Virus record (IMG/VR): IMGVR_UViG_3300025671_000538 | Location: 1-23,526 of that record | Origin: a virus | Strand: one strand, 5' to 3' | DNA: 23,526 bases | Shown: positions 1,979 to 23,526 of the stretch, piece after piece | How the letters are laid out: every line of letters starts with the position of its first letter | How positions within the stretch are numbered: the first letter of the stretch is position 1 | The notes under the pieces: generated by a model | What the model was told of the DNA's origin: nothing | Databases searched by the model: none | The model's input: only the letters and a program-made list of their open reading frames with translations | Made by a program: the position numbers and the translations under genes

Positions 1979-2250
1979 TGTCAACTAAAACTGCTTTAGC
2001 TATATGTGACGTTTGTGGATTTAGGTATCCAATGCGTCAAATGAAAAAAAATAGCTATAATCTTTTAGTTTGTCCAAACGATTTTGATGGTGGGTATGAT
2101 TTAAAGAACCATCCACAAAATAGAACACCTTATATTTATCAAGAAGAAATTGTAAGAAATGCCCGTCCTCCTAGCAATGCTGACAGAAATATTAATTGGG
2201 AAGATGGAGAAACTTGGGAAGAAACTAGCAAGAACTGGAACCAAATATAA
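1978..2250 (+). CDS. Small zinc-ribbon-like phage protein
   Basis: A 90-residue protein with TAATG overlaps at both ends. It opens with ALAICDVCGFRYPMRQMK (CxxC plus an aromatic-basic strand), followed by a second half LLVCPNDFDGGYDLKNHPQNR. From memory, this resembles a small family in marine phages with a CxxC...CxxC zinc ribbon followed by an HP motif. Here the second pair is C-P-N-D, so the last ligand would have to be Asp or a nearby His, which makes it a degenerate or altered site. The C terminus is acidic and Trp-rich (NWEDGETWEETSKNWN). It sits between adaptor and fibre genes; its function is unknown and possibly structural. Confidence 0.7.
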   Translation: MSTKTALAICDVCGFRYPMRQMKKNSYNLLVCPNDFDGGYDLKNHPQNRTPYIYQEEIVRNARPPSNADRNINWEDGETWEETSKNWNQI

Positions 2251-2909
2251 TGACAGACTTAACAGGTAAAAAAATATCAAATACTTATAAAGAGTTATTG
2301 AAAGTTAAGACAAGTGTTGATAACACTGGTATTGATAGCGTAGTAAGATTTATTGAAGATGGGGCTGGTAATAATACTGCTCTTAAACTTTCCAATAATA
2401 AAGTAGCTTCTAATGGTAATGTATCTGTAGGAGGCTCATTAAATGTTACTGGAGTTATAGCTGCTGGTGAACTTTCTGTAAGCAACCTTAATACAACTGG
2501 CACAATTGGTGCTACAAGAATTACTGTAGATTCTATAGAAGCTTCTGTTGTTTCTGCCACAACTTATTATGGTGATGGTTCAAATTTAACAGGTATTGTA
2601 GTAAGTGCCGCTGCTAGCGTAGGAACATCAGCAACACTTGAAACAAGAATTGCTGGGGTAAGCTCTTCTTTACAGTCTTCTATTGATGCTAATGCTTCTG
2701 CAATTGTAGTAGCCAATTCTTCTATTGCGGCAAATACAAGCTTAATTGCTGCATTATCTGCAACATTAGAAACAAGGATAGCAGAAGTTAGTGCTATTAT
2801 TCCAAGACAGCTAACATCTCTTACTAACGATTTATGGAAAGTAACCCTTACTGCACCAACTACAAGTGGAGGAAAACCTGAAGGATATATTTGGTACGTA
2901 GTATCTTAA
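2250..2909 (+). CDS. Shaft-type tail fibre protein
   Basis: A 219-residue protein. The N terminus reads KISNTYKELLKVKTSVDNTGIDSVVRFIEDGAGNNTALKLS, a leader I associate with fibre or structural proteins of marine phages. Then comes a series of short beta repeats (NGNVSVGGSLNVTGVIAAGELSVSNLN, TGTIGATRITVDSIEAS) and the motif TYYGDGSNLTGI (about residues 105-116), typical of fibre shafts. Residues of about 120-190 contain Ser/Ala-rich helical stretches with two copies of SATLETRIA (SATLETRIAGVSS and SATLETRIAEVSA), probably a trimeric coiled coil. It ends with KVTLTAPTTSGGKPEGYIWYVVS. It likely forms a homotrimer on the tail. It is followed after 12 bases by the Thr-rich fibre gene. Confidence 0.75.
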   Translation: MTDLTGKKISNTYKELLKVKTSVDNTGIDSVVRFIEDGAGNNTALKLSNNKVASNGNVSVGGSLNVTGVIAAGELSVSNLNTTGTIGATRITVDSIEASVVSATTYYGDGSNLTGIVVSAAASVGTSATLETRIAGVSSSLQSSIDANASAIVVANSSIAANTSLIAALSATLETRIAEVSAIIPRQLTSLTNDLWKVTLTAPTTSGGKPEGYIWYVVS

Positions 2910-2921
2910 AGGAGTCTAATA

Positions 2922-4592
2922 ATGGCAAAGAACATTAAGATTAGTGACGGCTCCACAGTTAAGGACGTTAGTCGGCTTTTTATTACAGAAAACCAAGGAA
3001 CTATATTTGAAGTAAACTATGCCTTTATAAATAATGGAGGCGTAGTTAGCACTGTTTTTGAAGCTAATTACGAAACATTTAGAGCAGCAGACACTAACCG
3101 CACTACTACATTTGAAACAACAGGTGTAACAGACAGAGTTACTGTATTTGAAACAAATACTATTTATGATACAGCACAGTCTACAAATAGAACAACTACT
3201 TTTGATACTACTACAACCTTTGACACTACATTTGAAACAACAGCTATAACAGACACATCAAGAACTACTGTGTTTGATACAACCACTGTATTTGATACTA
3301 CGTTTGAAACTTCTCCAACAACTACGTTTAGCACAACAACAGTATTTGACACAGTGTTTGATACTAGCCGCACAACTACATTTGACACGACTACTGTGTT
3401 TGATACAGTTATTCTTACATCAAGAACTACTGATACATCAATCATAGCCTCTACAAGTAGAGAAACTATTTTTGATACTGTTACACTTTTTGATACTACA
3501 TTTGATACAAACCAGTTAACCGAAACAAGTAATACTACAACATTTGCAACAGTATTAAGTACATCTAGGGCTACTTCTACAAGCCGTGCTACTTCTACAA
3601 GCCGTGCTACTACTACCTCTCGTTCTACAACAACTACATTTAATACTAGCCGAACAACTACTTATACTACTGCAGGTGGTTATAGTGCTTACTTTTTCTC
3701 AACAGCTTCGCCTGCGTACTATTGGAGTGGCGCTGGAACTATAATTTGGGCTGACGCAGTTATAACAAGCGGCGGTGCGGGTGCAGGAAGCCCTGGGTTA
3801 ACATATTATGCAAGTCCTTATAGATATTTGTGTGGTCAATTAAGACTTAATTTTAAAGGCGCACTTTTTTATGAAGTAGCTCGTAGGTACGAAGCAGCTA
3901 CGTCTAGAACTACTACATTTGCTACAAGTAGAGCTACTACTACTACATTTAGTACTACTACTATATTTAATACTACTACAACATTTGATACTACTACAAC
4001 ATTTGATACAGTATTTGATACTAGCCGTACAACTACATTTGACACGACTACTGTATTTGAAACTACAGCAGAAACTGACATAACTGTAGCTACAAGCAGG
4101 ACAACTGTATATGATACTATTACTGTTTTTGATACAGTTACAGCCTACGAAACAGCTTATGAAACTAACTTAATTACAGATACAAGCAGAACTACTACAT
4201 TTGAAACTGCTCTTTCTACATCAATAGATACAGAGACAAGCCGAACAACTATATATGAAACTACAGGCAGTACTTCTCTTGCAACCTCAACTAATAATGT
4301 AACTGTATTTGGAACTATTACAACTTTTGAAACCACAGGAGCAACATCACTTCAAACAGAAACCTCAAGGCTTACTGTATTTGATACTTTGTTTAATACT
4401 ACAAAAGTTACAAATACTTCCTTGACAACAGTATTTGATACAGTGTATAATACAGCTAGAGAAACAATTTTTGAAACTTCAAGTGTTATTGTTTACGAAC
4501 GATTGACAGCTACAAATCAAGAAACAGAAGTTGGTTCTATAAATGATACAACAGAAAGATACTGGGATGGTGAAAAATGGACGGAAGTTTAG
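2922..4592 (+). CDS. Threonine-repeat fibre-like protein with central non-repeat domain
   Basis: A 556-residue protein with a strong ribosome binding site (AAAGGAG, 7 bases before the ATG). Residues 1-57 are an ordinary mixed head. Residues of about 58-250 and 327-525 consist of short units such as TSRTTTFDT, TTVFDT and TTFET. By my count about 175 of 556 residues (roughly 32%) are Thr, with Phe/Tyr spaced by 4-6 residues. Between them lies a Thr-poor domain (about 251-326) rich in Gly, Tyr and Trp, containing FFSTASPAYYWSGAGTIIWAD and a single Cys. The tail end (527-556) closes in RYWDGEKWTEV. The regular spacing suggests a long beta fibre, with the central domain as a knob or ligand-binding part. 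No signal peptide or catalytic motif is visible. The position between two fibre genes supports a tail-fibre or virion surface role. The Thr content would suit O-glycosylation; that is inference. Confidence 0.75.
   Translation: MAKNIKISDGSTVKDVSRLFITENQGTIFEVNYAFINNGGVVSTVFEANYETFRAADTNRTTTFETTGVTDRVTVFETNTIYDTAQSTNRTTTFDTTTTFDTTFETTAITDTSRTTVFDTTTVFDTTFETSPTTTFSTTTVFDTVFDTSRTTTFDTTTVFDTVILTSRTTDTSIIASTSRETIFDTVTLFDTTFDTNQLTETSNTTTFATVLSTSRATSTSRATSTSRATTTSRSTTTTFNTSRTTTYTTAGGYSAYFFSTASPAYYWSGAGTIIWADAVITSGGAGAGSPGLTYYASPYRYLCGQLRLNFKGALFYEVARRYEAATSRTTTFATSRATTTTFSTTTIFNTTTTFDTTTTFDTVFDTSRTTTFDTTTVFETTAETDITVATSRTTVYDTITVFDTVTAYETAYETNLITDTSRTTTFETALSTSIDTETSRTTIYETTGSTSLATSTNNVTVFGTITTFETTGATSLQTETSRLTVFDTLFNTTKVTNTSLTTVFDTVYNTARETIFETSSVIVYERLTATNQETEVGSINDTTERYWDGEKWTEV
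3344..3403 (+). repeat. 60-base direct repeat, copy A (partner 4001-4060)
   Basis: Aligned base by base with 4001-4060, 56 of 60 positions are identical. All four differences are transitions in third codon positions (GAC/GAT, GTG/GTA, CGC/CGT, GTG/GTA), so both copies encode the same peptide running from FDTVFDTSR to TTTVF. The copies lie 657 bases (219 codons) apart, one on each side of the central domain. Confidence 0.85.
3570..3623 (+). repeat. Tandem 18-base repeat (SRATST units)
   Basis: The 18-mer GCTACTTCTACAAGCCGT occurs at 3570-3587 and identically at 3588-3605. It is followed by a diverged third unit at 3606-3623. The array encodes three successive six-residue units (ATSTSR, ATSTSR, ATTTSR), directly before the non-repeat central domain. 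Confidence 0.9.
3900..4496 (+). repeat. Second Thr-rich coding repeat block
   Basis: This stretch codes for residues 327-525 of the Thr-rich fibre, downstream of the central domain. The units are of the same TSRTTTFDT / TTVFDT type as in the first block, including the closely matching 60-base copy at 4001-4060. Toward the C terminus the units drift to ETSRTT, ETTGSTS and VYNTARETIFET and become less regular. Confidence 0.8.
4001..4060 (+). repeat. 60-base direct repeat, copy B (partner 3344-3403)
   Basis: Second copy of the 60-base unit described at 3344-3403, differing only by four synonymous transitions. Confidence 0.85.
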
Positions 4593-4735
4593 AAGACGAA
4601 ATTAAAAGATTAAATAAAAAACTTGAAATAACTTTAGAAATTGTATTAGATTATTTTAGAGACACAGAGGAAAAGATTGAGGAGCTAGAGGAAAAAATAG
4701 AGGACTTAAAAAATGCCCTTAATGAAAATGGCTGA
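4577..4735 (+). CDS. 52-aa coiled-coil microprotein
   Basis: An ATG at 4577 opens a 52-codon frame ending in TGA at 4733-4735. The protein is almost entirely a heptad-like helix: LEDEIKRLNKKLEITLEIVL, then EEKIEELEEKIEDLKNAL. Leu/Ile occupy a/d-type positions and Glu/Lys fill the rest, so a parallel coiled coil (dimer or trimer) is likely. The gene overlaps the end of the Thr-rich fibre gene by 16 bases and the next gene by 23 bases. The ribosome binding site is weak (GGTGA 3 bases before the ATG), so it probably depends on translational coupling to the fibre gene. It could be a fibre trimerisation aid or chaperone; that is inference from position. Confidence 0.6.
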   Translation: MDGSLEDEIKRLNKKLEITLEIVLDYFRDTEEKIEELEEKIEDLKNALNENG

Positions 4736-5573
4736 TAATGAAGTACTAGGTGATGCTGCTGCTCACTTCTTTAAATCAGGAAATGTTTTACGTTCTAGAA
4801 AAAATAAAGAAGTAGAAAATTTACTTAATCTTTTACCAGAACGAGGACCAGGAAATACTAATATTGAGTATGACTTATGGTATGATGTAGGCGGCAAGAC
4901 TATTAAAGGATTTGTATATACAGATAGTATGGCTAACTTTATGTATATACGCCCTGCTAATAAATACCATAATTTTAATATTATGGAAAAAGCTGCAAGT
5001 AGTCCTATTACAACAGAGGGGCTTTGGCTGTTTGAAAAGATAAAAGAAAATGCTACAGATAAATATAGTTTAAAGAAAAAAACTATACCTGATAATAAAT
5101 TTGTTATATTCCTTCCAGGAACTAATATATTTAATAAGGCTGTAGATATAGACAAAGTACATAGAGCAGTTAAACAAGGGGCTAAATTAAAGATGCACCC
5201 TATATCTGCATCAGGGCTTGAGTCTTATCTTCGTAGAGAGTTTGGTAGCGATGTTATTATTGATAAAAAAATTTCTGGACACGAAGTTCTAGATAAGGCT
5301 AAGATTGTAGGCTGTTGTACTAATTCTGAAATGGGTATAGCCGCTTTAGCAAAAGATAAGATATTGCATATCTTCGATAAAGATGATACAATAAGGACAT
5401 ATTCGTCTATATATAGTGCTATTAAAACAGACAAAGGATATAGTCAAGATAAACTTAAATCTATTCTATCATGTGAGTATTCTGGATTAGTTCCATATTA
5501 CAGTAGTAACCCACAGAAAAGAATAGATAATTTTTTTAATTATTGTAGTGAGTTTGTAAATGCAAATAAATAA
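4713..5573 (+). CDS. Possible GT-B / capsule-type glycosyltransferase-like protein
   Basis: A 286-residue protein. The start at 4713 is favoured by GAGGA at 4700-4704 with 8 bases of spacing. Visible features in the second half resemble the C-terminal Rossmann half of capsule, KDO or TagF-like transferases: a strand KFVIFLPGTNIF (about 129-140), KLKMHPIS (about 158-165, with an H-P pair), SDVIID, then KIVGCCTNSEMGIAALAKDK (about 197-216), which looks like the 'signal: S/T-N-S near a helix, then a strand' element that binds nucleotide-sugar in that superfamily. The N-terminal half does not show a clear donor or acceptor fold to my eye. The gene is strongly AT-rich and lies in a cassette between two fibre genes. 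A glycosyltransferase acting on a fibre or surface sugar is possible. The call is weak, and the protein may be an unrelated Rossmann-like protein. Confidence 0.45.
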   Translation: MPLMKMADNEVLGDAAAHFFKSGNVLRSRKNKEVENLLNLLPERGPGNTNIEYDLWYDVGGKTIKGFVYTDSMANFMYIRPANKYHNFNIMEKAASSPITTEGLWLFEKIKENATDKYSLKKKTIPDNKFVIFLPGTNIFNKAVDIDKVHRAVKQGAKLKMHPISASGLESYLRREFGSDVIIDKKISGHEVLDKAKIVGCCTNSEMGIAALAKDKILHIFDKDDTIRTYSSIYSAIKTDKGYSQDKLKSILSCEYSGLVPYYSSNPQKRIDNFFNYCSEFVNANK

Positions 5574-6276
5574 TGTGGTTATTTATGAAGAGAATGACCT
5601 TACACCACTCACAGTAAATTCTATTAAGGCTAATATGCCAGACTGGACATACAAAGTAGTTCCAGTAGAAGATAGTAAAATAGGCCTAGCTTTAAAAAAT
5701 ATTAATGATACTTCTCTTGTAGTAAAGAGTGGTGTTGTATTAAAAGTAAAAGAAGGAGATTTACCGTCAAAAGAAAGATTAAACAATTATCATATGGCTC
5801 TTAGTAGGTTTTATGTTTTTTATGACCATCTTAGATTACATGCGTCATATGAAACTAAATTAGGAAAACCTATAAACCCAAATATAGTAGATATGTCTGT
5901 ATTTATAATTAATCCAAATATGTGGAGTGATGTTCCTAAAACAGATGTTGGGATATTTGCAGATAAGAAAAAACTATATATGCCTAGGTATATGAATCAT
6001 AGAAATGATATGCTTATGGAAGAATGTTTAAGTGCTAGAGACTGTAATACCTATGGTATATTGGCTGAAGATGCTTGTGCATTAAATTATGTAGGCATTA
6101 TATTAAAAGGTTATATAAATATGTCAGAAAGATTTTCGTATCCTTTTGATGAAATTAATAAGTATACAGAAGGTTTAAATGAAAAGTATAAACAAACTAT
6201 TAATAAATTTGCTACAATGACTCAAGGTCGTTATGATAAATTTAGAAAAGCATTACACAAGATAAAGAAAGATTAA
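5560..6276 (+). CDS. Unknown protein, possibly GT-A-like
   Basis: A 238-residue protein whose start overlaps the preceding gene by 14 bases. The first 60 residues (NNVVIYEENDLTPLTVNSIK, then PDWTYKVVPVED, then DTSLVVKSGVVLKV) have the alternation of strand, helix and strand seen at the start of GT-A sugar transferases (first Rossmann half followed by a short conserved strand). However, no clear DxD metal site follows. The middle has VDMSVFIINPNMW and ILAEDACALNYVGIILKGY, with an E-D pair typical of late GT-A segments but not diagnostic. The C-terminal 50 residues are helical and Lys-rich. It is very AT-rich, like its neighbours. I do not recognise a named family; a glycosyltransferase-like role is a hint from fold pattern and neighbours only. 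Confidence 0.5.
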   Translation: MQINNVVIYEENDLTPLTVNSIKANMPDWTYKVVPVEDSKIGLALKNINDTSLVVKSGVVLKVKEGDLPSKERLNNYHMALSRFYVFYDHLRLHASYETKLGKPINPNIVDMSVFIINPNMWSDVPKTDVGIFADKKKLYMPRYMNHRNDMLMEECLSARDCNTYGILAEDACALNYVGIILKGYINMSERFSYPFDEINKYTEGLNEKYKQTINKFATMTQGRYDKFRKALHKIKKD

Positions 6277-6993: not shown

Positions 6994-7917
6994 ATGGCAA
7001 GCACATATACTTCAAGAATTAGGCTGGAACAACAAGGAGATGGCGAGAATGCTAACACTTGGGGGCAGAGGCTTAACCAAAACGTAATTGACCTTGTAGA
7101 TGAAGCAGTTGCAGGGTATGAGTCAATTGACGTATCTGCTGCTTCCTCTGTAACTCTTACGGCTAATAATGGAACAACTGACCAGTCTCGTAACTTTGGT
7201 CTTAAATTTACTGGTGCATTAAATGCAGATACTACTGTAACTGTTCCTGCCCAAGAAAAAATTTATTTTATACACAATGATACTAGCGGCGACTTTAACC
7301 TTTTGATTAAACCAGCTGGCGGCACTTTAGTTACTGCACCTGGTTCTGGAAAGTCAATGATTATTGCTGGTGATGGTGTTTCATTTGATAAGTTTACTGA
7401 TGGCAGTTTTGATTCTGGTACTCGTATGTTATTCCAACAAGCCACTGCTCCTGTAGGCTGGACTGCTGTATCTGCTTCTGATTATAATGATGTAGGTCTT
7501 CGCATTGTATCTCCAGATACTTATACTACTGCAGTAGGTGGCTCTACAGCTTTTTCTACTGTATTTGCATCACGAACAGTTTCTGTTGTAGGTAATACAG
7601 CTAATGCTACTCTTACTGGTAGTACTGGGTCAACTGCAATAACGGTTGACCAAATGCCTGCTCACAGTCACACTATTTCAACTAACTTTGTATTAGGTCT
7701 TACAGATACTAGCAGGACAACTAGCCCTCCTACAGCAGATGGAGGCGCTTTGAGTTTATCACCACAACCTACATGGACAGCCTCTAATACGGGCGGTGGC
7801 CTAGGACACACCCATAGTTTATCTGGCATAGGTTCTCATAACCATGTTGTTAGTGCCGCTGGTACACTTAATTTAGATGTTAAATATGTAAACTTTATTA
7901 TTGCACAAAAGGATTAA
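6994..7917 (+). CDS. Tail fibre with C-terminal collar domain
   Basis: A 307-residue protein with a ribosome binding site AGGGAT about 7 bases before the ATG. The N terminus (TYTSRIRLEQQGDGENANTW, then GQRLNQNVIDLVDEAVAGYE) is the leader I know from many marine phage fibre proteins. The next 90 residues form a beta domain with DTTVTVPAQEKIYFIHNDTSGDFNLLIKPAGG. From about residue 145 (MLFQQATAPVGWT) a tail-collar-type module follows, with LRIVSPDTY, QMPAHSHTI, GLGHTHSL and GSHNHVVSAAG. GSHNH fits the GxHxH pattern that in the T4 gp37 tip coordinates iron; the other His pairs are of similar type. The protein closes in LDVKYVNFIIAQKD, as collar-domain fibres do. It likely mediates host surface recognition or fibre attachment. 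Confidence 0.8.
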   Translation: MASTYTSRIRLEQQGDGENANTWGQRLNQNVIDLVDEAVAGYESIDVSAASSVTLTANNGTTDQSRNFGLKFTGALNADTTVTVPAQEKIYFIHNDTSGDFNLLIKPAGGTLVTAPGSGKSMIIAGDGVSFDKFTDGSFDSGTRMLFQQATAPVGWTAVSASDYNDVGLRIVSPDTYTTAVGGSTAFSTVFASRTVSVVGNTANATLTGSTGSTAITVDQMPAHSHTISTNFVLGLTDTSRTTSPPTADGGALSLSPQPTWTASNTGGGLGHTHSLSGIGSHNHVVSAAGTLNLDVKYVNFIIAQKD

Positions 7918-18213: not shown

Positions 18214-18578
18214 TGTTACAAGGATTAATTGGACCAATTGCTAGTATTGCTGGCACGTGGCTGGAAGGCAAGCAAAAGAAAGCTGAAGCTAAAGCCAAGC
18301 TAGAAGTAGCAAAGGTAGAAGCAACAGTAAAGAAAGTTGAGCAAGATGGTGATTGGGAAAGCCAAGCTATGTCTGCATCTGACAATAGCTGGAAAGACGA
18401 AGCATGGACGCTGTGCTTTATTGCCCTTATCCTAGCATCATTCATCCCACCGCTGCAGCCATACATGCAAGCAGGGTTTGACTTTCTACGTACTGCACCT
18501 GAATGGCTACAGTGGGGTATTCTAGCAAGTATAGCTGCAAGCTTTGGTATTAAATCAATCAGTCAGTTTAAGAAGTAA
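18213..18578 (+). CDS. Holin-type membrane protein (3-TM / GTA holin-like)
   Basis: A 121-residue protein. The N terminus (LQGLIGPIASIAGTWLEGKQ) has one amphipathic or hydrophobic segment, followed by a charged helix (KKAEAKAKLEVAKVEATVKKVEQ), then SASDNSWKDEAWTLCFIALILASFIPPLQPYM and WLQWGILASIAASFGIKSI. The block 'SWKDE - hydrophobic helix - PP - hydrophobic helix - SFGIKS' is the one I know from the 3-TM holin family first described in gene transfer agents. It would permeabilise the inner membrane so that the GH24 lysozyme one gene upstream can act. Its end overlaps the oppositely oriented gmd gene by 11 bases. Confidence 0.75.
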   Translation: MLQGLIGPIASIAGTWLEGKQKKAEAKAKLEVAKVEATVKKVEQDGDWESQAMSASDNSWKDEAWTLCFIALILASFIPPLQPYMQAGFDFLRTAPEWLQWGILASIAASFGIKSISQFKK

Positions 18579-19581
18579 GAGCAGCATCCATCATCTCTTC
18601 GATAAGAGATTGGAATGTGTATTGTGGTTGCCAGCCTAATACTTCTTTAGCTTTGCTTGGGTCACCAAGTAGTAAGTCTACTTCAGCAGGGCGGTAAAAC
18701 TCTGGGTTAATAGACACAACAGTATTACCATTCTCATCTATACCTTTTTCATCTACACCTTTGCCTTCCCAGTGGATACGTATGTCCACTTTGTTGAAGC
18801 ATATCTCTACCAATTCACGCACTGAATTTAATTCGCCAGTAGCTAACACATAGTCATCACCATGCGTGTGCTGTACCATACGATACATCCCGTCTACATA
18901 ATCCTTGGCGTGTCCCCAATCACGCTTTGCATCGAGGTTGCCAAGTTCTAATTGCTCCATAGTACCTCTGGCAATCTCGACTACCCCTTTAACAATCTTC
19001 TGGGTAACAAACTCTCTGCCTCTCCAAGGAGACTCGTGGTTAAAAAGAATACCATTAGAACCATGCAGTCCATAACTTTCCCGATAGTTCTTAACTGACC
19101 AGTATGCAAACTGTTTTGCTACACCATAAGGTGAACGAGGATAGAATGGCGTGTCTTCTGTCTGTGGTATTTCAACTACTTTACCATACAGTTCTGATGT
19201 TGATGCTTGGTAGAAACGAGTACGCTCCATTAGTCCTAGCACACGGATACACTCAAGCAGTCGCAGTGTGCCTAGTGCATCTACATCTGCTGTGTATTCT
19301 GGTACGTCAAAAGACACACGTACATGTGACTGTGCTGCTAGGTTGTACACCTCATTGAATAAATGTGTATCAAATAGTTTAATAAGACTGCCTGTGTCTG
19401 TCAGGTCGCCATAGTGTAGGTGGAATTTATTGTAGTCCTGTAGATGTTGTATACGTTTAATCTCATCTGATGATGTACGTCTGCGTAGGCCATGTACTTC
19501 ATAGCCTTTATCTAATAATAGTTCTGCTAGGTAACCACCATCTTGTCCTGTAATGCCTGTAATAAAAGCTGTCTTAGTCAT
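18568..19581 (-). CDS. gmd: GDP-mannose 4,6-dehydratase
   Basis: The enzyme converts GDP-D-mannose to GDP-4-keto-6-deoxy-D-mannose, precursor of GDP-fucose, GDP-rhamnose and GDP-perosamine. Visible are the NADP-binding G9-x-x-G12-x-x-G15 (GITGQDG), RRTSS after strand 2, the catalytic STSELYGKV (Thr128, Glu130), SPYGVAK (Tyr152, Lys156) and the ending FYRPAEVDLLLGDPSKAKEVLGW, all as in the Gmd family. It is 337 residues against about 373 in E. coli, being shorter in the variable region before FYRPAE and at the C terminus. The conserved 'NHESPRRG' is NHESPWRG here. The ATG at 19581 follows TTG and has GGAG 7 bases upstream. The gene shares 8 bases with terS and converges with the holin gene. 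No GDP-fucose synthase or other reductase is in the window. Confidence 0.9.
   Translation of the reverse strand: MTKTAFITGITGQDGGYLAELLLDKGYEVHGLRRRTSSDEIKRIQHLQDYNKFHLHYGDLTDTGSLIKLFDTHLFNEVYNLAAQSHVRVSFDVPEYTADVDALGTLRLLECIRVLGLMERTRFYQASTSELYGKVVEIPQTEDTPFYPRSPYGVAKQFAYWSVKNYRESYGLHGSNGILFNHESPWRGREFVTQKIVKGVVEIARGTMEQLELGNLDAKRDWGHAKDYVDGMYRMVQHTHGDDYVLATGELNSVRELVEICFNKVDIRIHWEGKGVDEKGIDENGNTVVSINPEFYRPAEVDLLLGDPSKAKEVLGWQPQYTFQSLIEEMMDAALTS
18593..18610. terminator. Short inverted repeat at the convergent gene junction
   Basis: ATCTCTT-CGAT-AAGAGAT is a perfect 7-bp stem with a 4-base loop, 14 bases after the last plus-strand stop and inside the 3' end of gmd on the opposite strand. 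There is no T-run after the stem on either side, so a classical intrinsic terminator is not shown. It could be a weak bidirectional signal or chance. Confidence 0.25.
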
Positions 19582-20071
19582 CAAGCTGCTCCAGTATTGC
19601 TCTGTCTTCTTCCATAACCTGTTCCACCACTTCTAGTTGTTCATCTTCCTCAACTATTTCTGGGAATGTTTCTAAAAATAATTCAAACATTTTCTCTTTA
19701 CCTATAATATACATAGCGTTTTTAACTCTGTCCTCTAATGCTTCCATATCAACAGGACCAGCGTCTTCTTGGTTGTTGCCACGAACACGAGACAGAAGTT
19801 CTAATGCCTTCAATGCAGTCTGTCCATGCCCATTAATCTTAGCATGTTCGTATTGCTTCTCTAATTCAGATATAACATCAACATCAGTAGTTACTTCATT
19901 GCTTAGTTCTTCAATACGTTCTTGTATCTCTGGACGTTTAAGAAGAACATAACCTTGGTTATAAGCTGAAGCTTCTGAATAACCAGCAGCTTGTGCCGAC
20001 TTAGTAGCATTCCTGCTTATAAAGTAATGCTGACAAAACTGCTCATGTTTATCTTTATCTAGTTTAGGCAT
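19574..20071 (-). CDS. terS: Terminase small subunit (HTH, Terminase_2-like)
   Basis: The protein recognises the packaging start on the phage DNA and hands it to the large terminase. It is 165 residues. The N-terminal helix-turn-helix block reads KHEQFCQHYFISRNATKSAQAAGYSEASAYNQGYVLLKRPEIQ; the elements 'QFC-x-x-Y', 'NAT-x-A-x-x-AGYS' and 'G-x-x-LLKRPEIQ' are the classic signature of this family. A helical middle (ELEKQYEHAKINGHGQTALKALELLSRVRGN) and a very acidic C terminus (about residues 140-165) follow, the latter perhaps contacting the large subunit. Unusually, it is placed between sugar-modification genes and on the strand opposite to the structural genes. Overlaps of 8 bases on both sides suggest a single transcript. 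The large terminase is not in the window. Confidence 0.8.
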   Translation of the reverse strand: MPKLDKDKHEQFCQHYFISRNATKSAQAAGYSEASAYNQGYVLLKRPEIQERIEELSNEVTTDVDVISELEKQYEHAKINGHGQTALKALELLSRVRGNNQEDAGPVDMEALEDRVKNAMYIIGKEKMFELFLETFPEIVEEDEQLEVVEQVMEEDRAILEQLDD

Positions 20072-22349
20072 TCATTACCTCGTTAAATGTTCTGTATTGC
20101 TGGTTGTAAAATGACTGTTCAAATACCTGTGCTGCCAATGTGTCTTCACCATAGAATTTAATATTCAAACCAATGTCTTTACGCTCAAACATTTTCTCTA
20201 AGTCCTGTGCCAGTGCAAGCAGTTCACCTGTTGTATAGAATTGTTTGCCGCCTGTCTCTACGTGTAGATACTTAGGATTACCCATACCATCCTTTTCATT
20301 CTTACCCTTCTCTGCAATCTTAGGGTCAATGCTGCAGTCAAATCCAAACATGTGGATGTTATTATAGCCTAGTGTATCAAGTAGTCCAATGGTTCGTGTT
20401 GCTGCGCATGTGCCTCCAGAAATAAGCAAAGAACCTTTAGCAATAGGAAGGCTAGGGTCAACAGCAACTTTGTCTGTTACATTCTTATCACGAATAGCAT
20501 CGGTAAATGCGTGAAAGCCTAGAACATTATCTGTCTTAGACATAATGTATTCAGTTACAGACTTGTCAGTCATTGATGCAATAAAGAATTTAGTAGTAGG
20601 GTCAATCTTCTTAAACAAGTTTTTACGTACTACGCCGTGTGTACTCTCACCTTCTAGTGGGCGAGGGTCAAGGATTACACAGCCATAAGGTTTAATGTCG
20701 TTGGCTAGAAGCTTGGGATAGCTGTGCTTAACACAGAACACCTTGCCACCAGTTTCTTTAATTACCTTTTTAACTTGGTTAAAGTCTACTTTACCACCAG
20801 ACACTACGATGACATGTTCATCAACTGGCTTGTAGTGCGCAACCCAATTAAAGTTGTTAATCTTCTCTACGTTATACTCAATATTAGATTTAATATCGTC
20901 ATCAGGCATACAGTCTTTAGGCTTAACAAGGATAGGTACACGAGTCAGTTCGTCTGGCAGGTTACTTATATGGTTATAATCCTGAAGAATAACAGCCAAG
21001 TGTACTCTACCGCCAAAGGCAGTTCTATCATCCGAAGGTAATACACGTTTACGTTTTGGTGTTGCATCATTAAATACCTTTATAGTTCCTTGATGCTCGT
21101 CTGGAATACCAGCTGCATCGTCTGTTGTATAGTAGTCATCAAACACAACAACAGGTACATTAGTCAGAAAGCTGTAATCACTCTTTACTGTTTCGTAAGA
21201 ATGTCCACCATCAATGTAAGCAAAGTCTACATCGTCAAAGCGTACACCTTTCATTGAGTCACGTGTGTTGCCTGCGATTAATCGGAAGGTAAACTCTTTA
21301 CCATTCTCTTTCATCTTGGCAGCAAACTGTGCCAGCCTTTCTTCAACAGCCGCTAATGCGTTGTGTTCTTTTACATTAAGTTCTTCCTTGTCTGTCTCGT
21401 CAGTGGCTTGCTCAAATAAATCAAAGCCACGGTAATGGAACTTATCTACATTTTCAAATGCAGCCAGCGCCATCTCAATTGCTCTGCCACCATTCCAAGT
21501 GCCAATCTCTACTAGGCTGTAGCTACTTAAGTCTTTACTGTAGTGGCGAATAAGTGTAGCCAGTTTGCGGTAACGCTGTGGACCAGTCACATCTTTAGAT
21601 ACGTGTACTACTTTATCTTCAAACTTACGATTGCCTTTGTTGTGTACGAAGTAGTCTTTAAGAACAGAGTTAGCAAATACTTCCAAGCCACGCACACCTT
21701 CAGACAGGTTAAGTACATTAGCCCCATGTGCTTCGTAGATTTTAAGTAGCCGTGTGAACACAAACGAATCAGTCCACTCACGATAGGCAAACACTTCGTT
21801 AGTATCATACGCACCACGAATATCTACAATCTGTGAGCAAGCATTGTGCATAGCCAAGTTCCAACCAACAAAGCCTGTCTCGCTATAGTCAATGTCGATG
21901 CGACCAAGGTGTACAATGTCATAGTCGGCTGGCATAATCTTTGCTGCATCTTTTAATGTAAATTTTTTTGTTGTTATTGTGTCAGCGTCTAACCATACCA
22001 GCCAACCTTTATAGTCATCCTCGATTAACTCGTAGGCTAAATCAGAGTAGGCATATACTTTATTGCAGAAGCGTACAGCATCCCAACGATAATCATAAGT
22101 ACCATTAAGGTTGCCAGTCTTGTCTGCATTTCTATCAATGAAGTTGTTTCTAGCTTCAATGTGTTCTATGTGCCGATACTCGATGTTGCTAGAAAAGTTA
22201 GAAAGAGGTAGTTCTTCTACATCGTCATACCCTTCTACATACACAACGAGGCGCAGACTGCTAGACCAGTTGTTAGCTACTGACTCTAGAAACTTCTCGC
22301 CATAAATGTCGTAGTGTTTTTTAGTAAAGGATGTGACAAAAGTATACAT
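20064..22349 (-). CDS. Three-domain glycan enzyme: GT-A + SAM methyltransferase + DUF115-like
   Basis: A 761-residue protein. Residues of about 1-255 look like a GT-A glycosyltransferase: opening FVTSFTKKHYDIYGEKFLES, metal-binding D-x-D in WLDADT (about 119-124), then EWTDSFVFTRLL. Residues of about 258-460 form a class I SAM-dependent methyltransferase of the Methyltransf_24 type: SLVEIGTWNGGRAIEMAL (about 278-295), FAYIDGGHSYE (about 376-386) and PVVVFDDYYT (about 399-408). Residues of about 510-675 resemble the DUF115 / MptE-like fold: HVIVVSGGK, KVFCVKHSYPKLL, LLISGGTCAATRTIGLLDTLG and IHMFGFDCS. The start has GGAG 8 bases upstream; its first base is shared with the stop of the GT8-like gene. 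It probably transfers and methylates a sugar on a surface glycan or phage protein. The domain calls are pattern-based; substrate and order of reactions are unknown. Confidence 0.75.
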   Translation of the reverse strand: MYTFVTSFTKKHYDIYGEKFLESVANNWSSSLRLVVYVEGYDDVEELPLSNFSSNIEYRHIEHIEARNNFIDRNADKTGNLNGTYDYRWDAVRFCNKVYAYSDLAYELIEDDYKGWLVWLDADTITTKKFTLKDAAKIMPADYDIVHLGRIDIDYSETGFVGWNLAMHNACSQIVDIRGAYDTNEVFAYREWTDSFVFTRLLKIYEAHGANVLNLSEGVRGLEVFANSVLKDYFVHNKGNRKFEDKVVHVSKDVTGPQRYRKLATLIRHYSKDLSSYSLVEIGTWNGGRAIEMALAAFENVDKFHYRGFDLFEQATDETDKEELNVKEHNALAAVEERLAQFAAKMKENGKEFTFRLIAGNTRDSMKGVRFDDVDFAYIDGGHSYETVKSDYSFLTNVPVVVFDDYYTTDDAAGIPDEHQGTIKVFNDATPKRKRVLPSDDRTAFGGRVHLAVILQDYNHISNLPDELTRVPILVKPKDCMPDDDIKSNIEYNVEKINNFNWVAHYKPVDEHVIVVSGGKVDFNQVKKVIKETGGKVFCVKHSYPKLLANDIKPYGCVILDPRPLEGESTHGVVRKNLFKKIDPTTKFFIASMTDKSVTEYIMSKTDNVLGFHAFTDAIRDKNVTDKVAVDPSLPIAKGSLLISGGTCAATRTIGLLDTLGYNNIHMFGFDCSIDPKIAEKGKNEKDGMGNPKYLHVETGGKQFYTTGELLALAQDLEKMFERKDIGLNIKFYGEDTLAAQVFEQSFYNQQYRTFNEVMNA

Positions 22350-23125
22350 TATAAATTCTCCATTAGTAAGTTTCTTGTTTGTTCTTCTTCAGCATCCAGC
22401 CACTCTGCCGCATATACTTCGTCAACCTTTCTCTTAGGTTGCCAGTCGTCACCAAACCAAGGACCACCAGTAGTAAAGTGTACATTCTTAGCTTCTGTTG
22501 TGGCAGGGGAATGACCATCAAGCCAGTTCCACTCCTCGTGTATACCACCAATCTCGTCATCATCTAGCCAGCCAAAGCTGTGTAGCCAAGAGCCAGAGCG
22601 TAGGTTAACATCATCTACTGTTAGCTGTCTGTTCTTCTCGTGGTCACAATTCCATAGCATAAAGCTAGACCAGTTCTTCCTGTTGTATCGTGTCTGTGCT
22701 ACGCCATCAAGCTTAGTCCCTGCCTCTGGATTGTAGTTGTGTTTAATTACTTGAACAGCGTACTCTTTATTGCGTCCATATACTTCAAAAATTTCTCGTA
22801 TATCGCTACGCACAAGCATATCAGCATCCATGAAAAGAGCAAGCCCACTATGAAGATTAAGAGTGGGGATAAGAAAGCGAGTGAAAGTAAAATCTGTGCT
22901 ATATGGTTTGTTATCGAAGTAATCATATTTCTGCCTTGGGTTATCTGCAAATGTCTTATGCGTCCTGCGAAACAAACCAATGCGTCTAAGCACTGGCTCA
23001 AGCAGAGGGACAATTGGGTATTCTTTTGTAGAGTGTTTACGAATAGAAGCGTGTAGCACATCGTATGCACGATGGTCACGCACATCATACCCTACATAAA
23101 TAACTGGCGTTCTATCTTGTAACAT
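22349..23125 (-). CDS. GT8-like glycosyltransferase
   Basis: A 258-residue protein from the ATG at 23125, chosen over an in-frame TTG at 23140 because GGGAGG lies about 7 bases before the ATG. The sequence opens VIYVGYDVRDHRAYDVLHASI, a typical GT8-like beginning, and has the metal-binding FMDADMLVRSDIREIF (D-A-D at about 100-102). Later blocks are NRKNWSSFMLWNC, SWLHSFGWLDDDEIGGIHEEWNWLDG and NVHFTTGGPWF (H and GG of the GT8 donor site). The family transfers hexoses from nucleotide sugars with retention of configuration; substrate and acceptor are unknown. It shares one base with each neighbour (TAATG at both junctions), consistent with one operon for glycan modification. Confidence 0.8.
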   Translation of the reverse strand: MLQDRTPVIYVGYDVRDHRAYDVLHASIRKHSTKEYPIVPLLEPVLRRIGLFRRTHKTFADNPRQKYDYFDNKPYSTDFTFTRFLIPTLNLHSGLALFMDADMLVRSDIREIFEVYGRNKEYAVQVIKHNYNPEAGTKLDGVAQTRYNRKNWSSFMLWNCDHEKNRQLTVDDVNLRSGSWLHSFGWLDDDEIGGIHEEWNWLDGHSPATTEAKNVHFTTGGPWFGDDWQPKRKVDEVYAAEWLDAEEEQTRNLLMENL

Positions 23126-23526
23126 TATTTTTCCTCCCAAAAGTATTCATCAGTATTACCAAGGCGGTAGGTATAACCGTTCTCAACTTGATAAAATTCT
23201 GTAGAAACTTTAAAGTCAGGTTGCTTTGGTTCTTTAGGTGTTAAAGAATTATCGTATACACGCATACGATTGTTAGGATATAAACAATATTGTCCATTGT
23301 TTAATTCAATAAGGTTAAAAGACTTGTGTTCTTCTGGAACTTCGGAAGTACTATAGTCTACCTCATCAGAAGACACGTGGTAGTTGTCCAGCGTACACAC
23401 ATAACTACCATTTAATTTTTTATGGCTACGTGTAAATACTTCAAAGTCCATACTACCTATAAATTGTTTGTAAATAGCAGTAACACCATAGTCCATACAG
23501 TTCCAAAACTGTAAGTCATTAAGTGG
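23125..23526 (-). CDS. Conserved phage protein, 5' end outside window
   Basis: The minus-strand frame is open from the window edge to the stop at 23125-23127. A Met at 23494-23496 could start it, but the reading frame upstream continues as PLNDLQFWNCMDYGVTAIYKQF with no stop, and the part before the Met looks like protein (aromatic-rich, in keeping with what follows), so the gene probably begins beyond the edge. The rest has a Ser/Asp/Glu-rich middle (CTLDNYHVSSDEVDYSTSEVPEEHKSF) and a closing YQVENGYTYRLGNTDEYFWEEK, which could be beta-rich. I do not recognise a named family, though the DYGVTAIYKQF start seems familiar from other phages. Its stop overlaps the GT8-like start by one base. Confidence 0.6.
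   Translation of the reverse strand, partial: PLNDLQFWNCMDYGVTAIYKQFIGSMDFEVFTRSHKKLNGSYVCTLDNYHVSSDEVDYSTSEVPEEHKSFNLIELNNGQYCLYPNNRMRVYDNSLTPKEPKQPDFKVSTEFYQVENGYTYRLGNTDEYFWEEK

Follow-up and report, generated by a model that had tools for sequence, protein, structure and literature searches.

How a phage protein consisting of almost one third threonine is folded, and which function it might have, is the question raised by an ORF at 2922..4592 on the plus strand (556 aa, ATG start) of an IMG/VR virus record. The window, i.e., the whole stretch of DNA analysed, is a 23.5-kb fragment of 23,526 nucleotides with podovirus-like gene content (SU10-type adaptor, virion structural proteins, lysozyme and terminase small subunit), and its phage is known from metagenomes alone. 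Based on the ORF, its composition, residue parity and relatives, the protein is proposed to be a Thr-rich out-and-back fibre. As an explanation of the data as a whole, a virion fibre with a recognition tip is given a probability of about 0.78, judged from sequence.

The Thr-rich gene and its genomic setting

Threonine was counted 176 times among the 556 residues (31.7%), in agreement with the share of about one third given in the first-pass annotation. Gene copies with ~100% identity are present on two other metagenome contigs (L001 and L002), hence, the gene is not an assembly artefact. The TSRTTTFDT and TTVFDT units described before were found as well, with Thr autocorrelation at lags of 4, 14, 18 and 36 residues, and so was the single Thr-poor stretch at residues 251-326; residues ~255-324 contain less than 20% Thr, which makes these limits right within a few residues. 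The protein opens with an N-terminal base domain (residues 1-48; 2922..3065, plus strand as for all parts of the gene), followed by the proposed outgoing arm (about residues 58-250; 3093..3671), the Thr-poor, G/Y/W-rich tip domain (about residues 251-326; 3672..3899), the proposed returning arm (about residues 327-524; 3900..4493) and a C-terminal base motif, '(V/I)(F/Y)ERxTA ... YWDGxxW' (4494..4589), which is conserved in relatives. Pfam DUF2510 gave a weak, sub-threshold match to residues 542-555.

The gene had been placed between two fibre genes. Upstream this is correct, as a fibre-like ORF of 219 aa (2250..2909, plus strand) adjoins it, which is a neighbour of the gene in L003 as well; downstream, however, three to four genes precede the next fibre gene (6994-7917), and these separating genes belong to the fibre story. 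This next fibre protein has 307 aa and ends in PAHSHTI ... GHTHSLSGIGSHNH ... YVNFIIAQKD. By eye, its end resembles a collar of the gp12/gp37 type bearing a short stem with His-x-His, thus, the phage may have a classical fibre in addition to a Thr-rich fold-back fibre. The minus strand, at 18568-19584 and 20064-23140, encodes a GDP-mannose 4,6-dehydratase, a GT8-like glycosyltransferase, whose gene has homologues close to some of the cassettes described below, and a 761-aa ORF product with methyltransferase- and MptE-like hits.

Alternation of residues in the repeat

All 20 F/Y/W residues between residues 58 and 250 are at even positions (20/20, p = 1e-6), and all 22 between residues 328 and 526 are at odd positions (22/22, p = 2e-7). 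Due to this strict parity in both arms, the repeat is more than a mere compositional bias. It is a two-residue alternation and has no fixed-length motif; units of four and six residues, all of even length, are mixed (FDTV, FDTS, RTTT, FDTTTV). Among 55 non-redundant relatives, 2687 of 2804 aromatics (95.8%) share the parity of their own arm, 69 of 100 arms are without any exception, and the mean per-arm parity is 0.949 compared to 0.591 in shuffled arms. In some relatives (L051, L004) a single phase is held for more than 1200 residues. Parity breaks or non-central inserts were found in L007, L032, L113 and in fusions to a baseplate wedge. Arg is located on the same face as the aromatics, opposite to Asp, Ser, Val and Glu. 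An alternation in which residue classes are split in this way indicates one continuous, extended strand whose two faces differ in chemistry. The very long relatives L007, L008, L032, L033 and L029 (1700-2260 aa) have several parity breaks, and either their Gly_rich_2 domain is off-centre or their N-terminus is that of a baseplate wedge; such chains possibly make several out-and-back excursions each.

A beta-solenoid, in which the chain would run one way in 18-residue coils of the ice-binding-protein or hexapeptide type and the knob would sit half way along a rod, could explain why Thr in the window protein is autocorrelated at lags of 18 and 36, and known solenoids include Thr-rich faces. However, the repeat period varies among relatives (6, 10, 16, 18 and 20 residues), only evenness is conserved and this over more than 1200 residues in one phase, no hexapeptide match was obtained in Pfam, and the equal arms reported in the next section are left unexplained. 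Since the period varies and evenness is constant, a solenoid with a fixed 18-residue coil was ruled out, and solenoids of this type in general are considered improbable. The strict alternation, the genomic position and the base domains, which are common to other phage tail and fibre proteins, give good support to the first-pass reading of an unusual beta-repeat fibre.

Equal length of the two arms

The longest non-repeat stretch of each protein was located using a composition score which is blind to the position of the centre. Relatives span 168 to 1781 aa and have this stretch at the middle of the repeat. In a first set of 25 non-redundant proteins with the C-terminal F/YERxTA motif, arm lengths were, for example, 436/434, 363/364, 633/628, 117/117 and 118/116 residues. 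In a larger set of 55 non-redundant proteins, extended via finds made with the partner gene (see below), the stretch is within 2% of the middle in 32 proteins (2.2 expected by chance) and within 5% in 41 (5.5 expected). Proteins were counted as separate only if they shared less than 35% of their 8-mers, thus, independence is overstated by the binomial p-value of 1e-29. Inspection by eye gave seven families, differing in base or tip sequence, which obey the rule. It also holds for cultured phages (KVP40 57/55, VS2 53/51, F86 60/59, D479 51/51), and the length difference between KVP40 and VS2 is paired, with four residues per arm on both sides. In compact relatives, the arms range from 75/73 to 118/116.

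A few proteins with a low score (≤ 7), among them L037, L043, L045, L049, L054, L114 and L119, had an off-centre stretch and were scored as misses. They are read as detection failures and not as exceptions, because a looser scan revealed a central T-poor turn in several of them (L037, L043, L045 and L049). The clearest exception to the rule is the fibre of L113 (991 aa), which has a genuine, well-scored insert at 0.19 of the repeat region; a related insert is central in L115.

Repetitive DNA readily expands and contracts and tandem repeats are present here, so that equal arms might be a side effect of repeats being duplicated in tandem or recombining, without any fold-back of the chain. Recombination would alter the arms singly, whereas the arms observed change together over a range from 51 to 863 residues, and there is no direct (parallel) correspondence between them. 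This origin is therefore very improbable. When proteins were pooled, the aromatics of the two arms coincided in an antiparallel register near that set by the base anchors (z 9.2, 95% of the null at 3.3); the parallel register gave no aromatic correspondence. With the seven families weighted equally, a common cross-strand register was borderline (p = 0.06), and for this reason only the topology is claimed and no universal register.

Variable tip and conserved base

The N-terminal base domain is related to the 'NDNGTLRxV' repeats which open the relatives, and is conserved while arms and tip diverge. In relatives whose first 45 residues are 91% and whose last 35 residues are 93% identical, identity is 42-47% in the arms and 22% (median) in the tip; the latter value is approximate, as tip limits were set automatically and differ between proteins. 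The window tip is homologous to the tips of relatives (20-38% identity), and tips from 13 relatives can be aligned as a single divergent family, in which three residues are invariant (W32, Y58 and R77, numbering of the first row). Other relatives have a bare turn as tip (LPGKGGGSQ, TKGS), and that of L007 is a Gly_rich_2 domain. No match was obtained for the window tip in Pfam or by a profile search of the tip, and a PDB search of the whole protein was blank as well. A conserved base combined with a hypervariable apex is the signature of a recognition protein; due to its hypervariability and distal position, the tip is a putative adhesin, which may bind the host.

In the Vibrio phages F86 (L094, 2020-2628) and D479 (L096, 2468-3013), two cysteines flank the tip turn (CSKGGC and CWSSGKSGSC, respectively), which suggests a disulphide or metal-locked tip. 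The Thr-rich ORF is missing from the public annotation of both phages.

Proposed fold

Equal arms, a variable domain between them and an unbroken strand parity point to an out-and-back topology of the chain, which is considered very likely on these sequence features. The chain would start at the base domain and run outward as one alternating beta strand of about 190 residues; the variable, adhesin-like domain would form at the far end, from which an equally long antiparallel strand would lead back to the C-terminal base motif. Most likely, three chains intertwine to a six-stranded needle, the trimer being adopted from the precedent of T4 gp37. The tip would contact the host surface, as its position and hypervariability suggest. 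Assuming about 3 Å per residue, the rise derived from the T4 stem, a length of about 55-60 nm is predicted for the window fibre and one of about 250 nm for its largest relatives. The domain noticed before as a central knob is indeed central in the sequence, but equal arms across all sizes place it at the distal tip of a folded-back chain.

AlphaFold2 monomers, computed with 4-10 aligned sequences, had a pLDDT of 27 for the window protein and of 31 for a 270-aa relative, and no arm strands were predicted. Consistently disordered repeats in structure prediction had been named in the first-pass annotation as speaking against a fibre; formally, disorder was obtained, but with monomers and so few aligned sequences this outcome is uninformative.

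A cassette of fibre, coiled-coil ORF and 286-aa partner

The fibre gene is part of a recurrent three-gene cassette, in which it is followed by a coiled-coil ORF of ~50 aa and a protein of ~290 aa. The first-pass annotation had missed both companions, the small ORF next to the fibre gene and the obligate partner further downstream. In the window, the small ORF (52 aa, 4577..4735, plus strand) was previously unlisted and overlaps the fibre stop codon and the start of the next gene. The latter encodes the partner (286 aa, 4713..5573, plus strand; phrog_26179), which contains the motifs HFxKSG, PGTNLL, GxxxKPHP and NSEMG and is a candidate fibre assembly or modification factor. Its gene is overlapped by a 238-aa ORF (5560..6276, plus strand), which is found in a subset of cassettes.

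In every family with an NDNGTLR-type or YYRGG-type base, a partner homologue is located directly behind the Thr-rich gene. For the reverse test, 80 loci were gathered by alignment of the 286-aa partner alone; at 70 of them a Thr-rich ORF ends ≤ 2.5 kb upstream of the partner, in most cases at no more than 170 bases. The constant gap is filled by the small ORF (46-60 aa), which is coiled-coil-like (L..TLEII.EHF.E.E.RIE.LE) and hidden by standard length cut-offs. A counterpart is present in all 67 loci with the close arrangement (67/67) and, in divergent form, also in KVP40, F86, D479, DLP6, L004, L009, L040 and L078. Compared to the copy of L003, differences by codon position number 8, 9 and 17, thus, the third position is favoured. 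Where Thr-rich arms are fused to a baseplate wedge protein, as in large myovirus-like records, the partner is located elsewhere; it is present in 6 of 10 such records tested. A cultured example is Stenotrophomonas phage DLP_6 (KU682439.2, 151407-155273), which encodes a baseplate wedge protein with a long Thr-rich tail; its small coiled coil (AAY80_001) and partner (AAY80_002) are ~13-15 kb off, across the record ends. Two Thr-rich paralogues of different size flank the partner genes in L043 (3286-4206 and 6001-6810), L045 (2342-3031 and 6001-6963) and L054.

T4 fibres depend on two helpers which are not part of the virion, the small gp57A (79 aa) and the specific gp38 (PMC3004832). By analogy to this need, the small ORF is a candidate fibre chaperone, a role considered somewhat more probable than not. 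From the linkage observed, we infer that the 52-aa and the 286-aa protein may be dedicated factors for folding or modification of the fibre.

The KPHP and NSEMG motifs of the partner recall GT-B glycosyltransferases by motif resemblance. No significant match of the partner was found in Pfam, NCBIfam or PDB; one of 17 family members touches Capsule_synth with an E-value of 0.13. Profile tests for a GT-B identity were negative or insignificant, and a glycosyltransferase activity of the partner is a rather tentative lead. Such an enzyme might decorate Thr/Ser of disordered, densely O-glycosylated, mucin-like arms. The Thr/Ser richness, the GT-B-like motifs and the single Capsule_synth contact, the sugar enzymes encoded elsewhere in the window (GDP-mannose dehydratase, GT8-like) and the lack of order in the AlphaFold2 models are in line with mucin-like arms, but disorder explains neither the strict even/odd aromatics nor the equal arms, and the partner has no significant profile match. 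A disordered arm pair is therefore unlikely; a fibre which is glycosylated yet ordered is possible.

Relatives in marine and cultured phages

Dozens of marine contigs carry similar repeats, in agreement with the first-pass annotation, which had tentatively placed such repeats in other marine phages. A direct tblastn search of the fibre against cultured phages gave no match, probably because low-complexity filtering hides the repeats. Cultured phages were reached by searching isolates with the partner gene instead. A Thr-rich gene is located beside the partner in the Vibrio phages KVP40, PVA8, VS2, F86 and D479, and in the Caulobacter phages Lullwater, DCM, BL199, Quill_5.2 and Cr30; in the Caulobacter proteins the alternation is weaker. 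Bacterial genomes were searched for the fibre and for the partner, and neither was found. In the literature, no description of these fibres was found.

KVP40.0254 and its Schizotequatrovirus relatives (phrog_30374) resemble the window gene in that a TKGS turn is flanked by Thr-rich arms (57/55 residues) and that a small coiled-coil gene and a partner homologue follow. In KVP40.0254 itself, a near-schematic case of the proposed layout, the aromatics split 6/0 and 0/7 by parity. KVP40.0254 and its relatives differ by a base of their own type (YYRGG...VPTSG) and by the mere four-residue turn as tip. Such genes carry a hypothetical label or, in error, that of a yeast-like 'cell wall mannoprotein' (PMC3468402). 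In Stenotrophomonas and Xanthomonas phages, the base domain of KVP40.0254 is found downstream of tail fibre genes with no Thr-rich arms attached, which supports a role in a virion appendage. In the short-fibre pair of Lullwater and DCM, a Thr-rich gene is likewise flanked by a T7-like tail fibre gene on one side and a partner homologue on the other, but the aromatic alternation is weaker and the gene is unannotated.

Comparison with T4 gp37

In T4 gp37, which forms the distal needle of the long tail fibre, the stem arms comprise residues 882-931 and 960-1009 (50 each) and the tip residues 932-959 (PMC6957217). The chain leaves the knob, twists round its neighbour at the tip and turns back, so that both termini are at the knob (PMC9603124). 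The window protein shares with this needle (D10-D11) equally long arms, which would likewise be antiparallel, around a small tip, Ser/Thr-rich alternating strands and a parity switch between the arms; in the T4 record, His of the stem is on odd positions in one arm and mostly on even positions in the other. N- and C-terminus would both be at the base, and the helper chaperones of T4 may have a parallel in the two linked downstream genes. In contrast to gp37, the window protein has no His and consequently no His-x-His iron motifs, showing a Phe/Tyr/Arg/Thr alternation instead. It also has no D10 (gp12-like) collar, with no Pfam or PHROG collar or fibre matches at its ends, its base domains are unrelated, and no homology of the helper genes to gp57A or gp38 was established. 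Arms in the fibre family have 51 to 863 residues compared to 50, and are thus up to about 17 times longer. By none of the tests made is the window protein a homologue of gp37, although it would work like one. A further likeness exists to Gly_rich_2 (PF21722) and S16 gp38-type polyglycine adhesins, which have a variable recognition domain on a beta fibre; this domain sits between the Thr-rich arms of L007, but the window tip has no PF21722 match.

Implications

A far-reaching interpretation would be an undescribed, widespread class of phage adhesins. These would be intertwined out-and-back beta needles with arms of ~50 to more than 800 residues arising by balanced gain and loss of repeats; tips and bases would be exchangeable, and a coiled-coil chaperone as well as a glycosyltransferase decorating the Thr/Ser arms would be dedicated to them. 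Taken with all these parts, this interpretation is doubtful. The fibres raise the physical question of how one out-and-back needle with several times the length of any solved example is folded, and what the partners contribute. In uncultured marine phages, most receptor-binding proteins go unrecognised, as homology searches fail on repeats. With the equal-arm rule and the two linked genes, such adhesins can be found in a simple manner and their recognition tip can be located; this applies also to the cultured phages KVP40 and Lullwater, whose gene is labelled as hypothetical or as a yeast cell-wall protein.
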